Made by a program: the position numbers and the translations under genes. DNA of 24,477 bases. Origin: a virus. Location of the stretch: positions 1 to 24,477 of IMG/VR virus record IMGVR_UViG_3300030329_003947; one strand, given 5' to 3'. Every line of letters begins with the position of its first letter. The stretch's first letter is position 1. The notes under the pieces are model-generated. The model was not told the DNA's origin, made no database searches, and saw only the letters and a list, made by a program, of their open reading frames with translations. Positions 1-23,111 of this stretch are shown here, piece after piece.

Positions 1-3000
1 ATCATAGGCTCTCTGCATGGTGACAGACCAATCAAAGAAATCTCCGTAGTTCGATTTTAGCTTGTCTAATGAGTCCTGTAAAAACTGAAGTGCAGTACGA
101 GTGTCGCCAAACTCAGCGGTGCTCAGCAAACCAAATCGCCGTCCTGTGCCACGAAACTCTTTCGCAACACTAACTCGTGCAGCTTCAAAGAAGTCAGCAG
201 TAAACTCTGATAAAGTCCGAGCGACCATTGAAGGGTTAGTGACCATCTGAATCAAAGGCCACGTGATTACGTTTGTGCCTTGGTAACGCGGGCTAATACC
301 CATCAAACCACTTGCTTGCATTCGACGGCTGGCAAGCCAAATAGAACCAATATTTGTTAAAAGAGCTTCGCCAATATTTTCAGACTTCCTAAGAGAATCA
401 AGGCCACGACCAAGCTTGCCTTCAATCGCTTTACCTCGAACTAAATCAATTGTTCGAGCTAGCACTGGATCGCCCAACAAATACACATCATCCTTCAACG
501 AGATCATTGAAGGCATCAGCTTGGGAGATTGAGAGAGGTCGGACCCGCCAATAGGAAAACCAGCGTTGTTAAGGCCTGCCATGATGTCGGCAACCTCTAA
601 GCTAGTGGCCCTGTAGAGCGCGTCATCATAGGCTTGAGCGATTATCTGCTGCACTCTCTCTGGGTTGTTTTTTAGTTCTTTCCATGCTGTCGACGGATTG
701 ACTATGCGAAAAACACCTTCAGCCTCTTCAAGGTCTCGCCCCAGCTCATCAGCTTTTATTTGAGCCCACATAAAAGGAGCCCGTGGGTCGCCGTCAGGAA
801 CAGGAGCGAAGACTTCGCGTTTGGGCTCAAAGCCAAACTCGGCGGTTCTTTGGCGCCCAGCAGGGGGCAAATCTTTTTGGGCTACAGTTCTTGAAAGACG
901 CCTAGGATCATCGCCAACATATTGAACTAAGGTCGCTTCTCCTTCAAGCTTTTTTGGCGTCTTTATGGTGCTAAATAAATCCAAGAGCTTGGCGTTCTTT
1001 TCATTAGCAGCAATGACTGCAACCTCAGAAACACGACCTCTTTCAAACCGCACGACTTCAAGACCAGTTGGAAAACCGAGCCCTCGACGTTGAAAGTCAT
1101 TCAGCGTCTCCAATACTTTTTCAGTCCCTCCCCACTCTTTTAAAAGCTGAAGGTTTGCTGCTCGATATTCTTCAGACCCAGGGGGGAACTTCACGTCATC
1201 CAGAACCCAGGGCTGCATAATTTTATCCAGCTCATCAGGGCGAAAATTCGCAATAGACTTAGGGTCCATTCCTTCGTACACAGGACGGACATAAGCGTAC
1301 TTACCAGAAGTCTGTGCTCTCTCAACTACTTTGGTAGCATCTCTTTGAAGGTTCGCAATCGCTTCATAGATCAACCAGTCTCTGGTTTTATCAATCTCTT
1401 CATCAGCGAATACACGATAGACCTCTTCAGCTTTCTCACGCATACGCTTAATGAAGCCTACGTGTTTTCCTTCTTGCTGAGCAATGTATCCTGTTCTGCG
1501 CCACTCTTGAGCGAGTTCTTCAGAGAACCCTGTGCGAGCCATGTAATCATTCAGGACTTCCCGTTGGAGGTCTGGGTCTTCCATATAAAGTGGTATAAAA
1601 TAATTCCGATCAGGAGCTTTGGCTTGAGCCGCTTTATCAATTTTCGCTCTAGCTCCAGGAGACAAGACCTTATCGTAAACGGTCTCCATAGTATCTGTAT
1701 CAAACAGAGTCTTATAAGCGCTAGCGATTTCAGGAGCTTTAGGGGTCAGCAGGTGATCTATTTTTGCCTTCTCAATAATGTCGTTCAAAGAACCAACAAA
1801 GACATCATCTTTCAAGCTCTCTTCGACAGAAACCCACTCCCCGTCTTTTAAGGTATTTCGCTCCTTCCAGTGTTGCATCGCTTTGTTAAATTCAGGAGTC
1901 GAACCGAAGTTTCTTCGGTCAGGCATTGGTCCTGCGTCTACAACTCTCTTGCCAGCCCACATGTCAAAGAAATTGCTCTGCTCTTCACCGTGTTCCCAGC
2001 GAGCCAGTTGTTGCTTGTACTGGTCAATAATGTCTTTCTTTGCCGTCCCAAAGCCAGTGTCTTGATCAATCCATCGAGGGTCCAAGTTTGGATGGTAGCC
2101 AAGGCCTGTCTTCCATCGTTCAACTTGATCATTCCACTCCTTAAATTCAGGAGGCGGGTCTCCTGGATGGCCAAACATAACGCGCTTGCTGGTTGGATCT
2201 AACGCATCAAGATAAGCCGCCATGTCATCTTGAACAGACGCAACACCAGCGTCAGACATCATCTTGTTGATGTTGTTCTTTAAAAAGTTCTGAAGCCCAA
2301 CGCTGGTAAGATCACCGCCATAAAAGAAGTCAGAAAGAACGCGCTCGTAGACTTTCTTTGGATCAGTACCAAAGCGTGCGCGAATCAATTTCTCAGCGTA
2401 CCCAGAGAGAATGTGCCGATAAACGGACTCATGCCCTTCTAAGTCTTGCATTCCCCCTCGGGGGAGGGACCATTCAGACTCAGTGCGCTGTGGCTTAACA
2501 ATAAGCTCAGGAAACTCTGTCATCAAACGGTCTGCCATTTCAGTAAACTTTTGAGAGACCATTTCTTGTTGAGCGGCAACAGCAACTGCTGCCATAAAAT
2601 GACGATCTTCAACCTTGACTTTAGAGAGATCACCTGCCCCTTCAGCCCGAATGAACTCTTTAAACGCTGGGCCAAAATGGTCTATTGCGTTTTGGAGTGC
2701 CGTTGTCTTGAGAAAGCCCAGCTCACCTTCACGGCCTGCCAAGATTCTTTGGAGGCTGCTTTTCCAAGCAGGCAACTTCATCAGCTTAGATGTCTCATCG
2801 CCGCGAGCAGCCAACACAACTTCGTTTAAAAAGTCAGGCAAAATACGCTGCAGGTTTTCCATCTCTGAGAAGACATCTTCTCCCATCAAGCCCTTATATG
2901 CAGACATGACTTCATATAAGTCAACTTCACTAAGAGACTCTTCAACTCGGCGGACAGGCTTCGTCTTCCAAATGTCTTCTGCGGACGAACTATAGTCTGC

Positions 3001-6000
3001 AGCCGTTTCAAAGCCGCGAGGCTTTAGCAGGCTCTCTTGTCTGCCTTTGGCGTTCAAATAGTATGAAAATACAGAATGATAAAACCTCTCCGCAGTCTCC
3101 CCCTCATCCGCAGATTTACTCCAGATGTCTTGAAGCACCGAAGTAAATGCATCATAAGGGTTCTTGTATTCCTGTTGAGCATCAATCATCATTTGATTGA
3201 ATGCGCGAGGCACATCATAGGCCTCTTGCTCAAAGTTCGAAGCAATTCGAATCACCCGTGGATTAACCCACGGCGTCATGCGGTCAGAAGCAGGCTTTAA
3301 GACATCTGGCAATACACGCTGAACAAAGCTCCCAGCCATCCGAACAGCATAAGGCACCTCTTCTCCACGTACAGCGCCTCGAAGCACCGAGGCTTTGTCG
3401 TACCCCTGGCGGGCAGCGATAGTTTGCATAAGACGAAGAGCAGGAATTCTTCGTCCTGGGCCGCCCCCAACGCGGATGTCTCGAAACACGGGGACTTTGT
3501 CTATAACTTTTCCGACTTGATGCCCAGCCTTTCCAAGCAGGCCTCTAGAATCCTTAGGAAAGTAATCAACGATTTTCCCAGGAGCAATACCAACGGGCAC
3601 CTCAATGCCCTTGAATGCTTCAGGACGAATCAAAGTGGCGACACCATCATCAAGCTCTTTGGCCATTCGAAGCATGATTGTGGATTCAATCCAATTGAAC
3701 AATAAGCGCTGCTCATTATCAGTAGCCTTATGAGGGCTAAGCTCAAACAACTTCATTTTGGATTGAGTTCTTCGGCTTTCCATACGCTTTAAAGCTCGTT
3801 GCAACCCAGGAGTGGGAGGGCGAACCTTAAAAAGGTTGTTCAGCGCAGTTTCATCAATAACAATTTCCCAAAAACCATCGCGGCCTTTTTCTAAAGTCTG
3901 AGCTACCTTCTTAGTCTCAGCTTGAGCTGGGCGTTGAATCTTTTGCTTAGTTGCGCGAGTCATCAGCACATCTAAGTTTCCGTTTGCAAAAACGGTGTCA
4001 GCCTGAACTTGCTTTGATTGAAGTAAAACTGAAGTCCAAATGTCTTCTATTAGAGTTCGAGTCTGAACAGCGTTCTCTGCTTTCAGGAGTTCAGGGTTTG
4101 CCTGGAGAGCCCTCTCCATTCTTTTAAAGCCTTCTGCAATTGCAGGGTCTGCAGCTTGCTGCACTCTCTCTTGAGTCCACCTAAGCAGAAGAGGGCCAAA
4201 ATCCTCAGGCTTACCAGAGGCCTCAGCAAACTCAACAAAGCCATCAGTGGCGCGTTTTGCAAGCCACCGACCCATCACCCTTGGAGTGGACGACCAGTCC
4301 CAACGGGTGTTGGTTTCTGCTCCTTTCAAGCCTTTCGAGGCCTCGACCGTCATCTTGACACGTGAGCGCCCGTGGCCGTACTTAGCGGCCAAAGTAGTGA
4401 CAGGATTGGCCAAGAAGTCAGCCATCACATCAAGACGGTTGTTGAATACAGAAGGCGTCTTGGCATTCAAAGCAGCCGCTAAATCCTCAGGAGAACGCAC
4501 TAAGCCTGACTCTAAAAACATATTATAGAGTGTTGGCTGTGCAAACTTTTGCGCACCTCGAGCGGCCTTGGCAGCACCCCCTGCAACGTATTGTCCAGCT
4601 CTTATGACTTGAGATCCCATCGTAAGTGGAGAGATGGGAATCGCTAGCTCTAACCCGATGGCTGCTGCCATAGCTGGTATTCCAAACACCGAGTCCGTCA
4701 TCCCCTCAATGGCTTGCACATCTTCCAATGTAAAGCGGCCTGACTCCCAGCCTTCTAAGACGTTCATCATGTAGGCATCACTAGCGCCAGATAAGTGCGC
4801 TAATGCTGGGCCTAAGATGCCATACTTCTCAGGATCAGTCCTCCTGGGGGTAGGGGTAGAGATACCTGTAACGCCTTCGGTTCGAGGCAGGGCTAGCGAA
4901 GGGATTCCCAAATATGTAGAGTAATGCTTGGCCCTCTCGATCAGGCTTGGCTCTTCTCCACTAGCGAGCTTCTCGTAATATTCTCGATTCTTTTCAGAGA
5001 ACTTTTTTCCCGCTAAATAGTTTATGTCTAAAGGATCAACAGGCTGACCCCCTGGGAGCCTATCGTAGGTAAACGGCATCAAGACGCCTTCAGCGACGGC
5101 CCTGATTACGGGAGAGGCAACGAACCTCATGGTTCGAAGAAACTCACTCTCAACCATGACGCTTTCTGAGGGCTCATAAAGCCAAGTAGAGACATCTTCT
5201 CCTATATGACGCGCTATATCTTCAAGGGTCCCTGAGCTTCTCCGCTCGATGTTCTCCATTTGTTTTTTCACTCGACGAGCACGGTCCATATCAAGACGAG
5301 GGATATTGGTGCTGACCCATTCCCTTAGATATTGGTCAGCCATGGTCTCTGCGTCTTTTAAGAGCTGTTCCTCGTCGGGCTTCATTTCCCCTGAGTCCCA
5401 AGCCTCTTCGCGCAGCGCCTGCTCAAAGATGCGCTTCATCTTAGTTTTAAGCTGGCTGGTATATTCAAATTCAGCTTTGACTTTGGCTTTCTCTAGCTCT
5501 CGTATCCAGACATTTTGTTTTTGCTTTGCGACACGCGCAGAAGCGTTATAGGCCGCTGTGCCGCCATAAACGCCAGCGCGCTGAAGGTTTCTTCTTAAGA
5601 CCTCCGCCTGCTCAGGCATGTACTTTTTGTACCAATCCATGTCTGGAGTTCGTGTAAAATCAGTGTAAGCTGACTTCCACGCGTTAATCTTGTCTTGTTT
5701 GAAAGTCCCTGATGACAACTCCTCATCAGAAGCAGAAACCCAATCGCGCCCCATTGGGAGGCCGAATTGTTTTGCAAAGCTTTCCCAGGCTGAGAATTCA
5801 ATAGCTGCGGCTGCGGCTGCGCCCTCATCGCTGCTAATCCCTCTGCCTTTAGGCTTTGCCAATGGCTGTTGGCGCCACACTTCTTTTACGGCTTCTGGTA
5901 GCCCTGCTTCCTGAAAGACCCTAGACGGAGAGACGTCTCGGGTATCTGCCCCTGTAACCGCCTGAGGATATGGGCTTAATGATGCAGGCTTTGTATAGCC

Positions 6001-6423
6001 CTTCTCAAACTCTTGTACTTTTCTGGCAGACTCCATTTGAAGTTGAGGCCAACTGTACTCTTCTCCTGCCCTCACTTTGTCCTCAATAAGCCAGTCTAAC
6101 TCTTGCTGACGCCCAGCAGCTTTTCGAGTTTCGACTCTAGACCGATCAGCAACTTCCGACACAACAGTTTCACTGGCAGGCGCCTCTTCCCGCGCTGCGG
6201 GCGGCGCCACAGGGTTCTGTATCCTGTGAAGGGCAGATTGCTGTGCGGCGATTAGCCGGTCGTACCGAGCCTTTAGCTCTGCGCCACTATAGCCACGATT
6301 TACGTATGAATCGTATTTCTTACGTGACGCAGGGTCCAAAGCATTTAAATCAATTCCTGGTGTTGTGAATGGGTCTTCAGGCAACAACGGAAGATTAGTT
6401 TGTATTTCTGGCGGTCTTGCCAT
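1..6423 (-). CDS. Giant virion-associated protein, probable internal/ejection protein (partial, 3' end outside window)
   Basis: An uninterrupted minus-strand frame of 2,141 codons starts at the ATG at 6423 and is still open at base 1. The start lies two bases after the stop of the upstream gene, with a G-rich stretch (GGGGGC) just before it. I read the whole frame by eye and saw no stop. The protein is soluble-looking, charged and mostly helical. It has a Pro/Ala-rich N-terminal region, a poly-Ala run near residue 200, and one hydrophobic Ala/Gly-rich segment at about residues 570-610. No lysozyme, transglycosylase, polymerase or protease motif was recognised. Its place at the end of the virion operon after two ejection-like genes suggests a protein packaged in the head and delivered with DNA. 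A tape-measure protein is the main alternative, but long heptad regions and several membrane helices are not evident. The function is inferred from context only. Confidence 0.8.
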   Translation of the reverse strand, partial: MARPPEIQTNLPLLPEDPFTTPGIDLNALDPASRKKYDSYVNRGYSGAELKARYDRLIAAQQSALHRIQNPVAPPAAREEAPASETVVSEVADRSRVETRKAAGRQQELDWLIEDKVRAGEEYSWPQLQMESARKVQEFEKGYTKPASLSPYPQAVTGADTRDVSPSRVFQEAGLPEAVKEVWRQQPLAKPKGRGISSDEGAAAAAAIEFSAWESFAKQFGLPMGRDWVSASDEELSSGTFKQDKINAWKSAYTDFTRTPDMDWYKKYMPEQAEVLRRNLQRAGVYGGTAAYNASARVAKQKQNVWIRELEKAKVKAEFEYTSQLKTKMKRIFEQALREEAWDSGEMKPDEEQLLKDAETMADQYLREWVSTNIPRLDMDRARRVKKQMENIERRSSGTLEDIARHIGEDVSTWLYEPSESVMVESEFLRTMRFVASPVIRAVAEGVLMPFTYDRLPGGQPVDPLDINYLAGKKFSEKNREYYEKLASGEEPSLIERAKHYSTYLGIPSLALPRTEGVTGISTPTPRRTDPEKYGILGPALAHLSGASDAYMMNVLEGWESGRFTLEDVQAIEGMTDSVFGIPAMAAAIGLELAIPISPLTMGSQVIRAGQYVAGGAAKAARGAQKFAQPTLYNMFLESGLVRSPEDLAAALNAKTPSVFNNRLDVMADFLANPVTTLAAKYGHGRSRVKMTVEASKGLKGAETNTRWDWSSTPRVMGRWLAKRATDGFVEFAEASGKPEDFGPLLLRWTQERVQQAADPAIAEGFKRMERALQANPELLKAENAVQTRTLIEDIWTSVLLQSKQVQADTVFANGNLDVLMTRATKQKIQRPAQAETKKVAQTLEKGRDGFWEIVIDETALNNLFKVRPPTPGLQRALKRMESRRTQSKMKLFELSPHKATDNEQRLLFNWIESTIMLRMAKELDDGVATLIRPEAFKGIEVPVGIAPGKIVDYFPKDSRGLLGKAGHQVGKVIDKVPVFRDIRVGGGPGRRIPALRLMQTIAARQGYDKASVLRGAVRGEEVPYAVRMAGSFVQRVLPDVLKPASDRMTPWVNPRVIRIASNFEQEAYDVPRAFNQMMIDAQQEYKNPYDAFTSVLQDIWSKSADEGETAERFYHSVFSYYLNAKGRQESLLKPRGFETAADYSSSAEDIWKTKPVRRVEESLSEVDLYEVMSAYKGLMGEDVFSEMENLQRILPDFLNEVVLAARGDETSKLMKLPAWKSSLQRILAGREGELGFLKTTALQNAIDHFGPAFKEFIRAEGAGDLSKVKVEDRHFMAAVAVAAQQEMVSQKFTEMADRLMTEFPELIVKPQRTESEWSLPRGGMQDLEGHESVYRHILSGYAEKLIRARFGTDPKKVYERVLSDFFYGGDLTSVGLQNFLKNNINKMMSDAGVASVQDDMAAYLDALDPTSKRVMFGHPGDPPPEFKEWNDQVERWKTGLGYHPNLDPRWIDQDTGFGTAKKDIIDQYKQQLARWEHGEEQSNFFDMWAGKRVVDAGPMPDRRNFGSTPEFNKAMQHWKERNTLKDGEWVSVEESLKDDVFVGSLNDIIEKAKIDHLLTPKAPEIASAYKTLFDTDTMETVYDKVLSPGARAKIDKAAQAKAPDRNYFIPLYMEDPDLQREVLNDYMARTGFSEELAQEWRRTGYIAQQEGKHVGFIKRMREKAEEVYRVFADEEIDKTRDWLIYEAIANLQRDATKVVERAQTSGKYAYVRPVYEGMDPKSIANFRPDELDKIMQPWVLDDVKFPPGSEEYRAANLQLLKEWGGTEKVLETLNDFQRRGLGFPTGLEVVRFERGRVSEVAVIAANEKNAKLLDLFSTIKTPKKLEGEATLVQYVGDDPRRLSRTVAQKDLPPAGRQRTAEFGFEPKREVFAPVPDGDPRAPFMWAQIKADELGRDLEEAEGVFRIVNPSTAWKELKNNPERVQQIIAQAYDDALYRATSLEVADIMAGLNNAGFPIGGSDLSQSPKLMPSMISLKDDVYLLGDPVLARTIDLVRGKAIEGKLGRGLDSLRKSENIGEALLTNIGSIWLASRRMQASGLMGISPRYQGTNVITWPLIQMVTNPSMVARTLSEFTADFFEAARVSVAKEFRGTGRRFGLLSTAEFGDTRTALQFLQDSLDKLKSNYGDFFDWSVTMQRAYD

Positions 6424-18473: not shown

Positions 18474-20097
18474 CATTCATCTGGGGTAAGTATTGAGCGA
18501 CATTGGCAGGTCCAGGGTCAGCCAAAACATCTTGTAGAGGCATCTGCGTCCCTGCGTTCATGGCTCCAGGCATGCCCCCTGGGGGAGCCATTTCAGTTGG
18601 AACGACAGGGATAAAAGACTCAGGGAGCCCCAGCATACGCACGACTTCTTTTAAAATCTCAGGCTGGGGGACCCCCAATTGCAAGAGCGTTGGGATGTTC
18701 TCCAGCAATTGCTGTTTGGCAAGCTGCTCACTCATTGGAGTCGTTGCCATGTCAGCGGCGAAGACGTCAAAATCTCCAATGACGTCTGACGGTTTGACAA
18801 TCTCTGGGACTCCATCAATCAAAACCGAGAGAGCTTTCTCGTCTTCAAGGAAGAGGCCTAAAATATTCAAGTACACACGACTCAACTGCTCGATGGCCGC
18901 ATCTCTTTTGCGGGCCATTTGGCCTAGCTGTGAGCTAGAGTATGAAGCAAGCGCCGCGACCTCGGTGGCAGTCGCTGACTTCATGGCTTCCCCCCTTGCG
19001 AAGGGAGCGAGCTGGTCTGCGGCGTCTTTGTCTTGAGTCACGGTTTGCGCGTAGGCGCCAACTTCTACAGGAACCATTGTGTGAGGAATCGGGCGAATCA
19101 CAGCGTCCAAGTCTTCGTCGTCAACCTCTATGAATAGGCCATCAATGCCAGATGTCAGCTGAGCCATCTGCTCTTCATCCATGATTCCTTTCCTCACAAG
19201 ATACTGACGTGAGGCTTTCCTCACGGCTCCTGCTTGAAAAGACCGAACTACGTTCTTTTCGTAGCATTGGTCATAGATGCGGCGCACTGCGCTGTACCCA
19301 ATCATGGGCTGGTCAGGCATTGAAGAGAAATAGAAGGGAACAATGGGCACACTGGGCCTGTCCGCGTAATCCCTAAAAGGAATCGGGTCATCTGTGAGGA
19401 ATTTCTTCCCCTCACCCCAGTTCGGGGTCCAAAACTGGAGCCTATTGTTCACAAGGTCATAGATTTCAACAACTTTGATGTATTTGTCGAACTCTGTATC
19501 CCTCATCTTCTCCTCTTCTTCAGGGAGACGGTCAGTTGTGAACTTAAAGTAGCGCTCACGGCTCACGGTATCGAACTTCTTGGCGCCGAAGCGCTCTTTG
19601 GCCATGTGCAATGGGCAGTAATACACATGTCCGATGTATCTTTGCTGGTCATGACGGCTTGCATCACGGTCGACAATCACCTCCCAGGGGGGCAAGGCGA
19701 CTGGAAGGAGCATATCATAGACATCCTCACCCCCTACAGGGATGATTTTAAAGAATGCGTTGGGATAAATGAGCGCCATCCGTGAGGCTTCTTCGATCTG
19801 CTGCCTGCACTTGGTCAAAAACTCGTTGACTACAGCGGATGACTTGTCAGGATCACCTAATCCTCGCAGACCAGCCTTGAGGACGATGGCAGGATTCTTG
19901 GCATACAGCCCAGCGAGGTAAGACTCAACGTAGCTATAGCAATCTTGGGTCTGGATTACTATCGCTGTAGGGTCATCTTGGCGATCATCCCAAAACCGTG
20001 TCTCGTAAATGGCCTTATACTTTTCCATGTCGTGCCGCTGGTATTCCCAGTAGCGCTCATGGTCGATAAGCAAAGTCTTCACATCGTGAGCATCCAT
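18460..20097 (-). CDS. Portal protein, 545 aa
   Basis: The start overlaps the terminase stop as TAATG, with GGAG nine bases upstream. Size and order (after terminase, before scaffold and capsid) fit the dodecameric portal through which DNA is packaged. The N-terminal part begins MDAHDVKTLLIDHERYWEYQ. The wing region holds MALIYPNAFFKIIPVGG and ALPPWEVIVDRDA, typical portal phrases. A long stem and crown region contains SATATEVAALASYSSSQLGQ and KRDAAIEQLSRVYLNILGLF. The C terminus is Pro/Met/Gly-rich (MAPPGGMPGAMNAG) and possibly disordered. The likeness is to the podovirus and P22-like portals in length and phrasing, but the exact family cannot be fixed by eye. Confidence 0.88.
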   Translation of the reverse strand: MDAHDVKTLLIDHERYWEYQRHDMEKYKAIYETRFWDDRQDDPTAIVIQTQDCYSYVESYLAGLYAKNPAIVLKAGLRGLGDPDKSSAVVNEFLTKCRQQIEEASRMALIYPNAFFKIIPVGGEDVYDMLLPVALPPWEVIVDRDASRHDQQRYIGHVYYCPLHMAKERFGAKKFDTVSRERYFKFTTDRLPEEEEKMRDTEFDKYIKVVEIYDLVNNRLQFWTPNWGEGKKFLTDDPIPFRDYADRPSVPIVPFYFSSMPDQPMIGYSAVRRIYDQCYEKNVVRSFQAGAVRKASRQYLVRKGIMDEEQMAQLTSGIDGLFIEVDDEDLDAVIRPIPHTMVPVEVGAYAQTVTQDKDAADQLAPFARGEAMKSATATEVAALASYSSSQLGQMARKRDAAIEQLSRVYLNILGLFLEDEKALSVLIDGVPEIVKPSDVIGDFDVFAADMATTPMSEQLAKQQLLENIPTLLQLGVPQPEILKEVVRMLGLPESFIPVVPTEMAPPGGMPGAMNAGTQMPLQDVLADPGPANVAQYLPQMNDAVI

Positions 20098-21623
20098 TAG
20101 TAAGGACTCCTGCTGCGTTTAGGTACGGAGGTTTTCCAAGGAACAGCCTTTTGTGCCCGCCGTGCCCTCATTCGTGTCTTGTGTTGGTCGATAATATTTG
20201 CTCTCATAGAGGAAAGCAAAGAATATGGAATATCCTTACATGCCCACAGCGCCAATGCAAAGGACATAAGCAAATCATCGTTCCCGTTTTTGGGGTGATC
20301 GGGTCTCTCCCGCACTGAATCCCAGATGGTATTCTTGAGCTGGTCCAAAAGACGCGAATCTAGCCTAGAGAAGGAATGGGCTTCGATTCTTTCTCTTAAA
20401 TGTTCAAACAATCTTAGTCTGTTATGGGCTCGGGTTTCGAAGGGACGACCTCTGTCATTTGTCCATAACTTTTTGTACCCTGTGCGCTCAATCTGGTTGA
20501 GCGTTGTGGAGCCGTAGCCGTTTGCTTCGACTAAAACCAAGGGATTGTTGTATTTCCTCACAAGACTCACGATAATATCGCCCAGCTGTGAGGGTGTAGT
20601 TGTGTTGCTCTCAAAATGATACACCGGCTCACGGGTTGCGAGGCTCAAGATTGTGATCGCGGAGAAGTCACCCCCCACCCCTGCGGACACATCACAGCCC
20701 AGCACATATTCCTCTTGGGGGTTAGGCTCCTCAACGGGTCGATGGGCTCTAGCGCCGAGGGGTATGGGTTCTATCCCCTCTAATATTGACAAGTCAAAAT
20801 AGAACGTAGTCGCAGCTAGGAAACTCTCCTCAACTGTGAGGGGAAACTCACGGCGAAACTTCTCTAATCCCAGGGTCGCTAATTTCTTCTTCCTCCAAAA
20901 CATCTGCTGAAGATCAAGGTTGTGATCGTTGCTCATCTTGCGCTCTTCAGACGAGAGCCGGTAGTTGTTTGAAGGCTTCTTCCTATATTCGGGCTTCATG
21001 GGCCACCCATAAAAAGCGACCACCCACTCGTTCTTCCCTTCCTGAGCATCTAAGATTAACTGGTGAAACTTATCCCCTGGAGTGTTGGCTGTAGACTCAA
21101 TAATCACCTGCCCGTCTCCAACTGTCGCCTCCACCTCCGCGAGGGTCTCTTCTTGATTGGGATAGAACGCAAACTCAGACAAGTGCGCTGCTGCTGCTGC
21201 GAACGAACGAGTCCCGCCCCTTCCCCCTGCAGTGTAGATGTCCATACTGGCGCCTGAGTCTTGAAAAACCATCGTCCTAGTATTTAACTTTGCTAGGGGG
21301 ACCCTGAACTTTGGGGGTAGGTTGCGATAGAACGTCTTGTCCATCTTGTTCAACCCCTCGGCACTAGAGCGGGTATGGCTCATGACCGCATATGGTCTCG
21401 GATGTTCAGCGCAGTACGCTTTCCAGAAAAAGTAGGCTCTGATTAACGTTGATATTCCTAGCTGACGGGCTTTTGGAACAATCACACGGTCATGAGCTAG
21501 AAGAACGTCTAGTAAATCAGCTTGTGCAGGGTTAAGGTCAAAAAACGTGAGTCGCTTCCTCTCCTTGTTGTAAATGTACAAGCTAGAGATAAATTCTTTG
21601 GCGCTTAACTTCTTGATGTCCAT
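20097..21623 (-). CDS. terL: Terminase large subunit (packaging ATPase-nuclease), 508 aa
   Basis: The start at 21623 (MDIKKLSAKEF) has a strong GGAGG five bases upstream; a longer frame back to a TTG at 21761 would run through the inverted repeat and is rejected. The ATPase has a Walker A-type motif KARQLGIST at residues 51-59, a Walker B-type end HLSEF with E150, and the coupling motif IIESTAN at 174-180. The C-terminal RNase H-like nuclease shows D311 (GCDVSAG), E366 (LVLVEANG) and a late DD pair (NGNDDLLMSF). The protein binds concatemeric DNA, cuts it and pumps it into the prohead through the portal encoded next. No small-terminase gene is recognisable in this window; one of the short plus-strand genes or a gene outside could serve. 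Confidence 0.95.
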   Translation of the reverse strand: MDIKKLSAKEFISSLYIYNKERKRLTFFDLNPAQADLLDVLLAHDRVIVPKARQLGISTLIRAYFFWKAYCAEHPRPYAVMSHTRSSAEGLNKMDKTFYRNLPPKFRVPLAKLNTRTMVFQDSGASMDIYTAGGRGGTRSFAAAAAHLSEFAFYPNQEETLAEVEATVGDGQVIIESTANTPGDKFHQLILDAQEGKNEWVVAFYGWPMKPEYRKKPSNNYRLSSEERKMSNDHNLDLQQMFWRKKKLATLGLEKFRREFPLTVEESFLAATTFYFDLSILEGIEPIPLGARAHRPVEEPNPQEEYVLGCDVSAGVGGDFSAITILSLATREPVYHFESNTTTPSQLGDIIVSLVRKYNNPLVLVEANGYGSTTLNQIERTGYKKLWTNDRGRPFETRAHNRLRLFEHLRERIEAHSFSRLDSRLLDQLKNTIWDSVRERPDHPKNGNDDLLMSFALALWACKDIPYSLLSSMRANIIDQHKTRMRARRAQKAVPWKTSVPKRSRSPY

Positions 21624-21639
21624 GCTGTCCTCCAGTTTT

Positions 21640-21668
21640 AGTATATGGGTGAGAAAATGGGTCCGCAA
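21640..21668 (-). promoter_or_regulatory. Candidate promoter for the virion operon
   Basis: On the minus strand TATACT (21645-21640) matches five of six bases of a sigma70 -10 box. A poor -35 (TTGCGG, 21668-21663) lies 17 bases upstream. Transcription would start just before the GGAGG site of terL, leaving a very short leader. It is plausible as a late promoter, but the -35 is weak. Confidence 0.4.
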
Positions 21669-21705
21669 GAAATCGACTATTAGTGGGACTCCGAACGCCT
21701 CAGAG

Positions 21706-21786
21706 CGCGAGCGGGGGATCAAAGTGTGGGATGCCAATGTCGTGAGGCTGTGAGGCTGCAACCCACACTGTGATCCCCCGCTCGCG
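21706..21786. repeat. 25-bp inverted repeat (24 of 25 paired) with 31-base loop
   Basis: The arms 21706-21730 and 21762-21786 pair with one mismatch. They include the block GCGAGCGGGGGATCA and its complement, then AGTGTGGG/CCCACACT. The loop contains an exact tandem repeat of GTGAGGCT (21742-21757). It lies 83 bases upstream of the terL start and touches the end of the decayed gene copy. A terminator is unlikely on either side because no T run follows. A cruciform protein-binding site, replication or packaging signal, or small hairpin-type mobile element are possible. Confidence 0.85.
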
Positions 21787-22347
21787 ATTCCTCCTCCGCC
21801 CAGCCGTCTTCGTCTCTGTCTTCCATATGGACACCTTCTCCAGGTGGATCACCCTGCTCCATCCGAGTCGGTCTGCGGAGATCAAGTCGGTGATGTCCAT
21901 GTAGTCCTGTAGCATTGCTCCATCGTCTCCCACCAATCCCTCCATCCTGAGCGTGGCGTGTGTGAGTCGTGAGTCCTACCTGTCCAGCTGTTGAAGTATC
22001 TCCTGCCGTCTCGGCGAAGCATGGCAACCCGACCCACCCCAGTACGTGGGGAGTGCGGGACCTCAAAGTGCCCCCGGGTTTCCCTCCACCGAAGACTCCA
22101 GTCCTTCCACGACCGTGAGTTGTGAGGGCCAAGGCTGAGTACTTCCTCACGGCCTCCAACGAGTCCTTTTCCTATTTAGAATACCCAACGTCAGCCGCCA
22201 TTTCCCGCAGGATTCAACGGGAGTTCTCTTATTATAATGAGGTCCAGTCTCCTCTGTCAACGTGTTGTCTCATGCGAGCACGCGTGGTTCATGTCACCCC
22301 ATGTCCATGAGTTACTCTCCTTTGTTTCCCATGGTTTCTCCGAGTTG
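21787..22347 (-). pseudogene. Decayed inverted copy of the 192-aa gene
   Basis: The minus strand here is homologous to the plus-strand gene at 22488-23066. Identical blocks include 25 of 25 bases (21787-21811 with 23040-23064), 23 of 23 (21990-22012 with 22831-22853) and 14 of 14 (22169-22182 with 22641-22654). The ribosome site and start codon are also conserved in 17 of 18 bases (22330-22347 with 22473-22490). The copy is dead: from its ATG at 22332 a stop arrives at codon seven. There are single-base deletions before GACGGCAGG and before GTCCATATGG, about 20 bases are missing in the middle, and the stop codon is replaced by the arm of the 25-bp repeat. Several long open frames on both strands here are by-products of high G+C. 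Confidence 0.85.
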
Positions 22348-22405
22348 ACTTCCCCCGTCCAGTCAGCCAGCTGCCTGACCGTGGCTCCCCCCCTGCAGCG
22401 CAGTG

Positions 22406-22448
22406 AATATTTCCTCTCGGCTCCGCCCTTTTTGAGAGAGTAAATATT
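22406..22448. repeat. Axis hairpin of the inverted duplication
   Basis: AATATTTCCTCTC (22406-22418) pairs with 22436-22448 at 12 of 13 positions, leaving a 17-base loop that includes CCGCCCTTTTT. It marks the centre of symmetry and may be a divergent regulatory site or the turning point at which the inversion arose. Confidence 0.7.
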
Positions 22449-22454
22449 AACTAC

Positions 22455-22471
22455 GCCTCCAGGAGGGAGGC
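22455..22471 (+). promoter_or_regulatory. Leader hairpin upstream of the 192-aa gene
   Basis: A perfect 6-bp stem GCCTCC/GGAGGC with loop AGGAG ends 16 bases before the start codon. The true ribosome site GGAG (22479-22482) lies just downstream, five bases from the ATG. The loop presents a decoy AGGAG, so the hairpin could tune ribosome access or protect the mRNA end. Confidence 0.5.
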
Positions 22472-22487
22472 ACAACTCGGAGCAACC

Positions 22488-23066
22488 ATGTCCAACGCAC
22501 TCAAGCACCACATTCCCCTGGGGAGCCAAGCCCCCCGCTCTCCCCTGAGCCCCCAAGAGTTCCAAAGTCGCCTGGACCTCAAGATAATAAGGACACCCTG
22601 GGCTCGTCCTGACGGCAAATGGGTCAAACGAGGGTTCATCATTCTAAATAGGAACGGCCACGTCTACTGCCGTGAGGAAGTCCTCACTGTCGGGGGACCC
22701 GACAGCCACACAAATCACGTTCGCTTCACTCCCTTCATCTTCGGAGTAGGGAAAAGCGACAGAGTCGCTCAATTTGAGGCCACTCGCATCCTCGACGAAC
22801 TGGAATGGGTCGGGTGGCTCATGTTCTGCAGAGACGGCAGGAGATACTTCAACCGCCTCCCAGGAAGGCCTCACTTTGTCCCACAAGCCAAGCTCACTCT
22901 TCCACTCATGGAGGGAGACGACTCCACAATGCTCCAGGACTACCTGGACAACCGCGATGCTGATGATCTCCAAGCAGACCGCCTCGTACTCCACAGGGAG
23001 AACCACCCTACAAAGGTGATCCCTATGGACGACCGAGCCGAAGACGGCTGGGCGGAGGAGGAATAA
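22488..23066 (+). CDS. Unknown 192-aa protein, first gene of the rightward block
   Basis: The ATG at 22488 has GGAG five bases upstream, and this site is conserved in the decayed copy, which supports the start. The protein has a Pro/Ser-rich first 30 residues, then a mixed alpha/beta region containing KWVKRGFIILNRNGHVYCRE and WVGWLMFCRDGRRYFNRLPG. It ends in an acidic tail (DDRAEDGWAEEE). It has two cysteines, no CXXC pair, no membrane segment and no motif I recognise. Codon choice is C-rich, unlike the virion genes. Being the first gene after the divergent region and having been duplicated, it may be an early regulator or host-interaction protein. This is speculation; the conserved C-terminal acidic block is the best-preserved part in the dead copy. 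Confidence 0.75.
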   Translation: MSNALKHHIPLGSQAPRSPLSPQEFQSRLDLKIIRTPWARPDGKWVKRGFIILNRNGHVYCREEVLTVGGPDSHTNHVRFTPFIFGVGKSDRVAQFEATRILDELEWVGWLMFCRDGRRYFNRLPGRPHFVPQAKLTLPLMEGDDSTMLQDYLDNRDADDLQADRLVLHRENHPTKVIPMDDRAEDGWAEEE

Positions 23067-23083
23067 CCTCCTCTTCCTTTTTT
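23054..23083 (+). terminator. Rho-independent terminator overlapping the stop codon
   Basis: A 7-bp perfect stem GAGGAGG/CCTCCTC (23055-23061 with 23067-23073) with loop AATAA is followed by TTCCTTTTTT. The loop contains the TAA stop of the 192-aa gene, so a terminating ribosome would cover the hairpin. Confidence 0.8.
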
Positions 23084-23111
23084 AAAATACTTAAATAACC
23101 TAAAAAATAAC

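Follow-up and report, generated by a model that had tools for sequence, protein, structure and literature searches.

Duplicated pseudogenes with regulatory reuse are second copies of a gene that have lost their reading frame and apparently gained a regulatory element, and the locus analyzed here resembles them in both respects. Unlike the known reused pseudogenes, however, it lies inverted and head to head with its parent, it is found in a phage, the parent is an orphan, and isolated differences between the two copies are transversions only. The locus can also be compared with the quasi-palindromes linked to template switching (PMC8604942, PMC7202029), since it is likewise an imperfect inverted repeat with identical blocks and holds two possible short local inversions like those attributed to template switching. 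In contrast to those quasi-palindromes, the arms measure about 600 bases and lie far apart. Moreover, ordinary template switching makes the arms more alike and is not known to favor transversions, whereas the arms described here diverge mostly by transversions. A third comparison is offered by the related phages L051, L062/L063 and L065, in which TTGACA-17-TATAAT-like sites between divergent gene blocks lie upstream of the terminase region, some of them aimed at the terminase. These are short promoter repeats with 17-bp spacers in AT-rich DNA, separated from the large terminase by a putative small-terminase gene; in our phage, a single promoter with an 18-bp spacer lies within a gene relic. 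In L051 (positions 1-1500) and L062/L063 (positions 1800-3110), clustered near-identical divergent promoters (CTTGACA-17-TATAAT/TATATT) were observed between the early and late blocks.

The window, i.e., the whole stretch of 24,477 bases that was analyzed, is record IMGVR_UViG_3300030329_003947 and belongs to a tailed phage. A leftward block encodes the terminase, the portal, a scaffold-like protein, the major head protein and virion proteins; rightward genes, which are small, start at about 22.5 kb. At the left end, a giant virion-side ORF (1-6423, minus strand, more than 2141 aa) runs off the sequence; it matched no family except for a very weak hit to an RNA-polymerase PHROG (E 0.038). Directly upstream of gene A, the first rightward gene, lies its diverged inverted copy, here called B. 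The features of the region are as follows.

20097-21623, minus strand: large subunit of the terminase (phrog_2), whose gene opens the leftward packaging-capsid operon
21706-21786, minus strand: hairpin with 29-nt arms (93%), adjoining B at 21786/21787 (-54.9 kcal/mol, z -8.0)
21787-22421, minus strand: B, the inverted copy of gene A in its decayed state, read leftward and defined by homology, indels and coding scores
22381-22473, unstranded: centre of the repeat, with 38-nt arms (76%) and a 17-nt spacer, including AATATTT..AAATATT
22473-22490, plus strand: ribosome site and start of gene A, kept in B at 22330-22347 (18 nt, 94% complementary)
22488-23066, plus strand: gene A, intact ORF of 192 aa and of unknown family, backed by its coding score
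22922-22926, plus strand: possible five-base inversion, CTCCA in A opposite TGGAG in B at the same place; second case at 22989-22993
23054-23077, plus strand: terminator-like stem with T-run where gene A ends, its 5' half inside the duplicated part and its 3' half outside

The inverted gene duplication is real. When 22400-23100 was aligned locally to the reverse-complemented stretch 21690-22440, the result was 408 identical bases out of 567 aligned (72%) and a score of 379, far above the maximum of 41 reached in 200 shuffles. The homology extends from 22462 on the A side to 23064, the first base of the A stop codon, which pairs with 21787, and it takes in the ribosome site, the ATG and the coding region. 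Divergent stretches are interleaved with identical blocks (runs test), among them exact matches of about 26, 23 and 14 bases, and the 19 to 20 or so indels are mostly deletions in B. The pair is the sole long inverted repeat in the window. While A is open over 192 codons, the reading frame of B meets a stop after six (MGNKGE*) and is frameshifted, and the codon scores of B are noncoding in all six frames. According to the first-pass annotation, the divergent centre holds an unknown gene together with its inverted and decayed duplicate, and exact blocks and a conserved ribosome site and start occur in both arms, one copy being intact and the other carrying frameshifts and an early stop; the alignment bore out each of these points. 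As in a duplicated pseudogene, homology is full length, from ribosome site to stop codon, and the frame is destroyed with no coding signal left. A 146-aa open frame does run through B and the hairpin (21719-22159, minus strand) and is longer than most found in shuffles (p 0.034). We rejected it as a gene of B, since its codon scores are noncoding and its frame wanders relative to that of A.

Gene A itself scored 0.043 per codon in its own frame, and the two remaining forward frames scored about -0.5; the score is highest in the own frame, with one antisense frame nearly equal. Codons ending in C are far commoner than in the rest of the genes, C making up 47% of third positions. No match was obtained in Pfam, PHROGs, NCBIfam, PADLOC or PDB, and none of these collections yielded a transposase match for gene A that would mark the cassette as a transposable element. 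A single-sequence structure model reached a pLDDT of 36 and was set aside. Relatives of the gene were recovered neither by tblastn in phages and plasmids, nor in viral and genome scans with the protein or the A/B alignment as the query, nor with a DNA pattern for the motif RDGRRYFN, nor in the records of 26 relatives, a search run without a positive control.

Scans with the head protein and the terminase recovered about 58 related contigs. The nearest, L026 and L027, have terminases about 63% identical and head proteins 72 to 74% identical to those of our phage; both end at or inside the terminase and are thus uninformative on the A/B region. Gene A is absent from the other related contigs, and all relatives with upstream sequence lack a palindrome at the matching place, so that the arrangement sought in related genomes was not found. 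A seemingly conserved palindrome at the equivalent place in L062 was discarded, being in fact a pair of facing promoters. As for age, divergence between the arms amounts to 28% of aligned bases plus about 19 indels, which is close to the fourfold-site divergence of 32 to 35% between L026 and L027, whose proteins are 92 to 94% identical. The "recent origin" offered earlier for the repeat is therefore not supported. If B has evolved roughly neutrally, the duplication would be approximately as old as the L026/L027 split, a rough comparison with a different lineage.

The repeat sits in a GC-rich island with sharp edges: GC content is 51 to 63% from about 21700 to 23070 and 34 to 48% just outside. 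The island comprises the near-perfect hairpin of 81 nt, B, gene A and its terminator, and base composition is unbroken across 21787 and 22427. These elements are probably parts of one acquired cassette, as suggested by the base composition together with the absence of relatives. Rfam gave no match, and 19 exact 16-mer matches to the hairpin among viral contigs included none with the cassette. In relatives that extend upstream, short ORFs precede the large terminase and were read as small-terminase genes from their position and length; no homologue of them was found in the window, where the slot, upstream of 21623, is occupied by the GC-rich island. The cassette may thus have displaced the putative small-terminase gene.

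We then come to the function of B. The window was scanned for TTGACA-N(16-18)-TATAAT with a threshold of 11/12, and two further features follow from the result.

22231-22260, minus strand: sigma-70 consensus TTGACA-18-TATAAT, 12/12, inside B and pointing at the terminase operon
21624-22224, minus strand: putative leader for the leftward operon, about 600 nt long and made of downstream B, the hairpin and the terminase ribosome site, its start placed from the -10 hexamer

The match in B, with both hexamers perfect and spaced within the 16 to 18 bp of sigma-70 promoters, was the only site in the window reaching at least 11/12. None of 1,500 dinucleotide shuffles of B reached 11/12, and 60 shuffles of the whole window produced no 12/12 site. 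The site lies about 600 bases from the terminase start. Within the putative leader, TGGAG occurs eight times on the minus strand versus 1.4 expected, one occurrence being the terminase ribosome site. A CsrA-type sponge of GGA motifs was considered for this leader and rejected: TGGAG is enriched, but ANGGA is not significantly so (p 0.064), and the placement in loops is inconsistent.

The reading that we favor, with somewhat better than even confidence, is that gene A was duplicated in inverted orientation within an acquired cassette and that B, having lost its coding function, came to serve the leftward terminase-capsid operon as promoter and leader. A GC-rich cassette with gene A and a terminal hairpin would have entered a tailed-phage genome at its divergent centre. 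The inverted duplication of gene A with its ribosome site is documented by the observed homology, boundaries and disruption. B ceased to be a protein gene, diverging by about 28% without coding constraint, and during or after this decay it would have taken on its role as promoter and leader. Transcription by the host sigma-70 RNA polymerase would begin in B near 22224 and proceed through what remains of B and through the hairpin into the terminase. Reuse is suggested by the unique 12/12 match, its orientation toward the terminase, its excess over shuffles and the similar sites in L051, L062/L063 and L065. The reading also draws on the homology and disruption of B, on the age and phase-free divergence of the arms with their deletions mostly in B, and on the single compositional island from hairpin to terminator. 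Such a role would explain why a dead segment of 0.6 kb is retained in a compact phage genome. Against it, the counterpart in A already matches at 8/12, so that few changes were needed and the promoter could be fortuitous; a leader of about 600 nt with strong hairpins is long; and no close relative carrying the A/B region was found in the collections searched, hence conservation lends the promoter no support. On balance, B is most likely a promoter and leader: the match, its uniqueness and its orientation are observed in the sequence, while its use is inferred. The first-pass annotation had suggested "a role" for the repeat, and this is supported in another form, as no other sigma-70-type promoter in the window is perfect and the one in B is directed toward the terminase operon. 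The apparent reuse of a dead gene copy as a control region is unusual but understandable, and modest in mechanism.

The strongest alternative, to which we assign a clearly smaller but appreciable probability, is that B is simply a decaying pseudogene heading for loss and that its promoter match is coincidental. The frameshifts, early stop, deletion bias and noncoding composition of B all agree with this, but the promoter match is far above chance, unique in the window, and correctly placed and oriented. Moreover, transitions are nearly absent, unlike in ordinary neutral decay. Differences between A and B fall at the three codon positions in the numbers 48/59/52, and the lack of a codon-phase pattern indicates that protein constraint did not act on both copies when most of them arose. 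Only 35 of the 159 differences are transitions, and none of the 18 isolated ones (three matching bases on each side) is; four alignment scorings agree, giving 0 or 1 transition among 18 to 21 isolated differences. Compared with random pairing, in which one third would be transitions, the deficit is significant in two tests that share data (p 0.0012 and 0.0007). In related contigs, 202 of 363 differences are transitions (Fisher p 4e-13 versus the arms), the control being coding sequence under selection, so that B lacks the lineage-like neutral spectrum of a duplicated pseudogene. The classes in excess from A to B are C to A and T to G, with C to A occurring 43 times versus 7 for A to C. Two possible five-base inversions were seen between the arms where 0.15 were expected (p 0.0065), and they account for only a small part of the spectrum. 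Sequencing error behind the A/C and G/T differences was rejected, since the flanking ORFs are intact and an indel-rich divergence of 28% would not survive assembly.

This substitution spectrum is the one truly puzzling feature of the locus. In a heteroduplex of the paired arms, C-to-A and T-to-G changes correspond to C-T and G-A mismatches. It is conceivable, although we consider it doubtful, that the arms still meet as a heteroduplex in which mismatch repair removes transitions, T-T, A-A and G-G, while C-T/G-A and C-C survive. G-A has been described as the worst-recognized purine-purine mismatch, C-C as very poorly recognized, and A-A and G-G as among the best recognized, an order that fits such a filter, although the ranking of mismatch recognition is without consensus (PMC4417165). 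The filter leaves the direction bias (43 versus 7) unaccounted for. Single-base indels are also removed by repair, and their presence in the arms speaks against it. Alternatively, selection against a hairpin on both strands could cause the transversion excess, since a transition always leaves a G-T pair on one strand.

It is rather unlikely that the near-palindrome itself is functional, whether at the DNA level, as an origin or a signal for packaging, or in the form of a long folded RNA regulating gene A. A single strand spanning both arms would form one extended hairpin (-638 and -711 kcal/mol), and the 81-nt hairpin adjoins the repeat; however, inverted homology by itself produces such large folding energies, and relatives lack such a palindrome at this place. 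A cruciform, as proposed at first pass, is unlikely because the arms are too diverged and the centre is nonhomologous, even though single strands would still fold. The proposal that the messages of the two arms pair is unsupported as written: with A read rightward and B leftward, both outward transcripts carry the sense of the gene A message and cannot pair. Pairing would require transcription to run across the centre, and no promoter that could drive this was found, nor was a rightward promoter left of B. A transcript of this kind would fold on itself.

An assembly artefact, in which B stems from another population or a foldback and was wrongly joined, is improbable: the arrangement is known from a single contig and no second genome, but an amplification foldback would be near-identical rather than 72% identical, the flanking ORFs are intact over 21 kb, and composition is continuous across both junctions. 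That B is a sequence store donating variants to gene A by conversion, of the silent-cassette or diversity-generating type, is hardly credible, since, despite the alternation of identical blocks and divergent stretches, B is frameshifted, differences affect all four bases in either direction of comparison rather than template adenines only, and no reverse transcriptase was matched among the scanned proteins of the window, itself a fragment.

If the favored reading of B as promoter and leader is true, an entire gene duplicate would have been converted, within a compact phage genome, to the promoter and leader of a structural operon, giving a regulatory region whose protein-coding ancestor is traceable and adjoins it. 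The transversion-rich divergence, if repeated in other long inverted repeats, would provide a sequence signature of arm-to-arm pairing in vivo.
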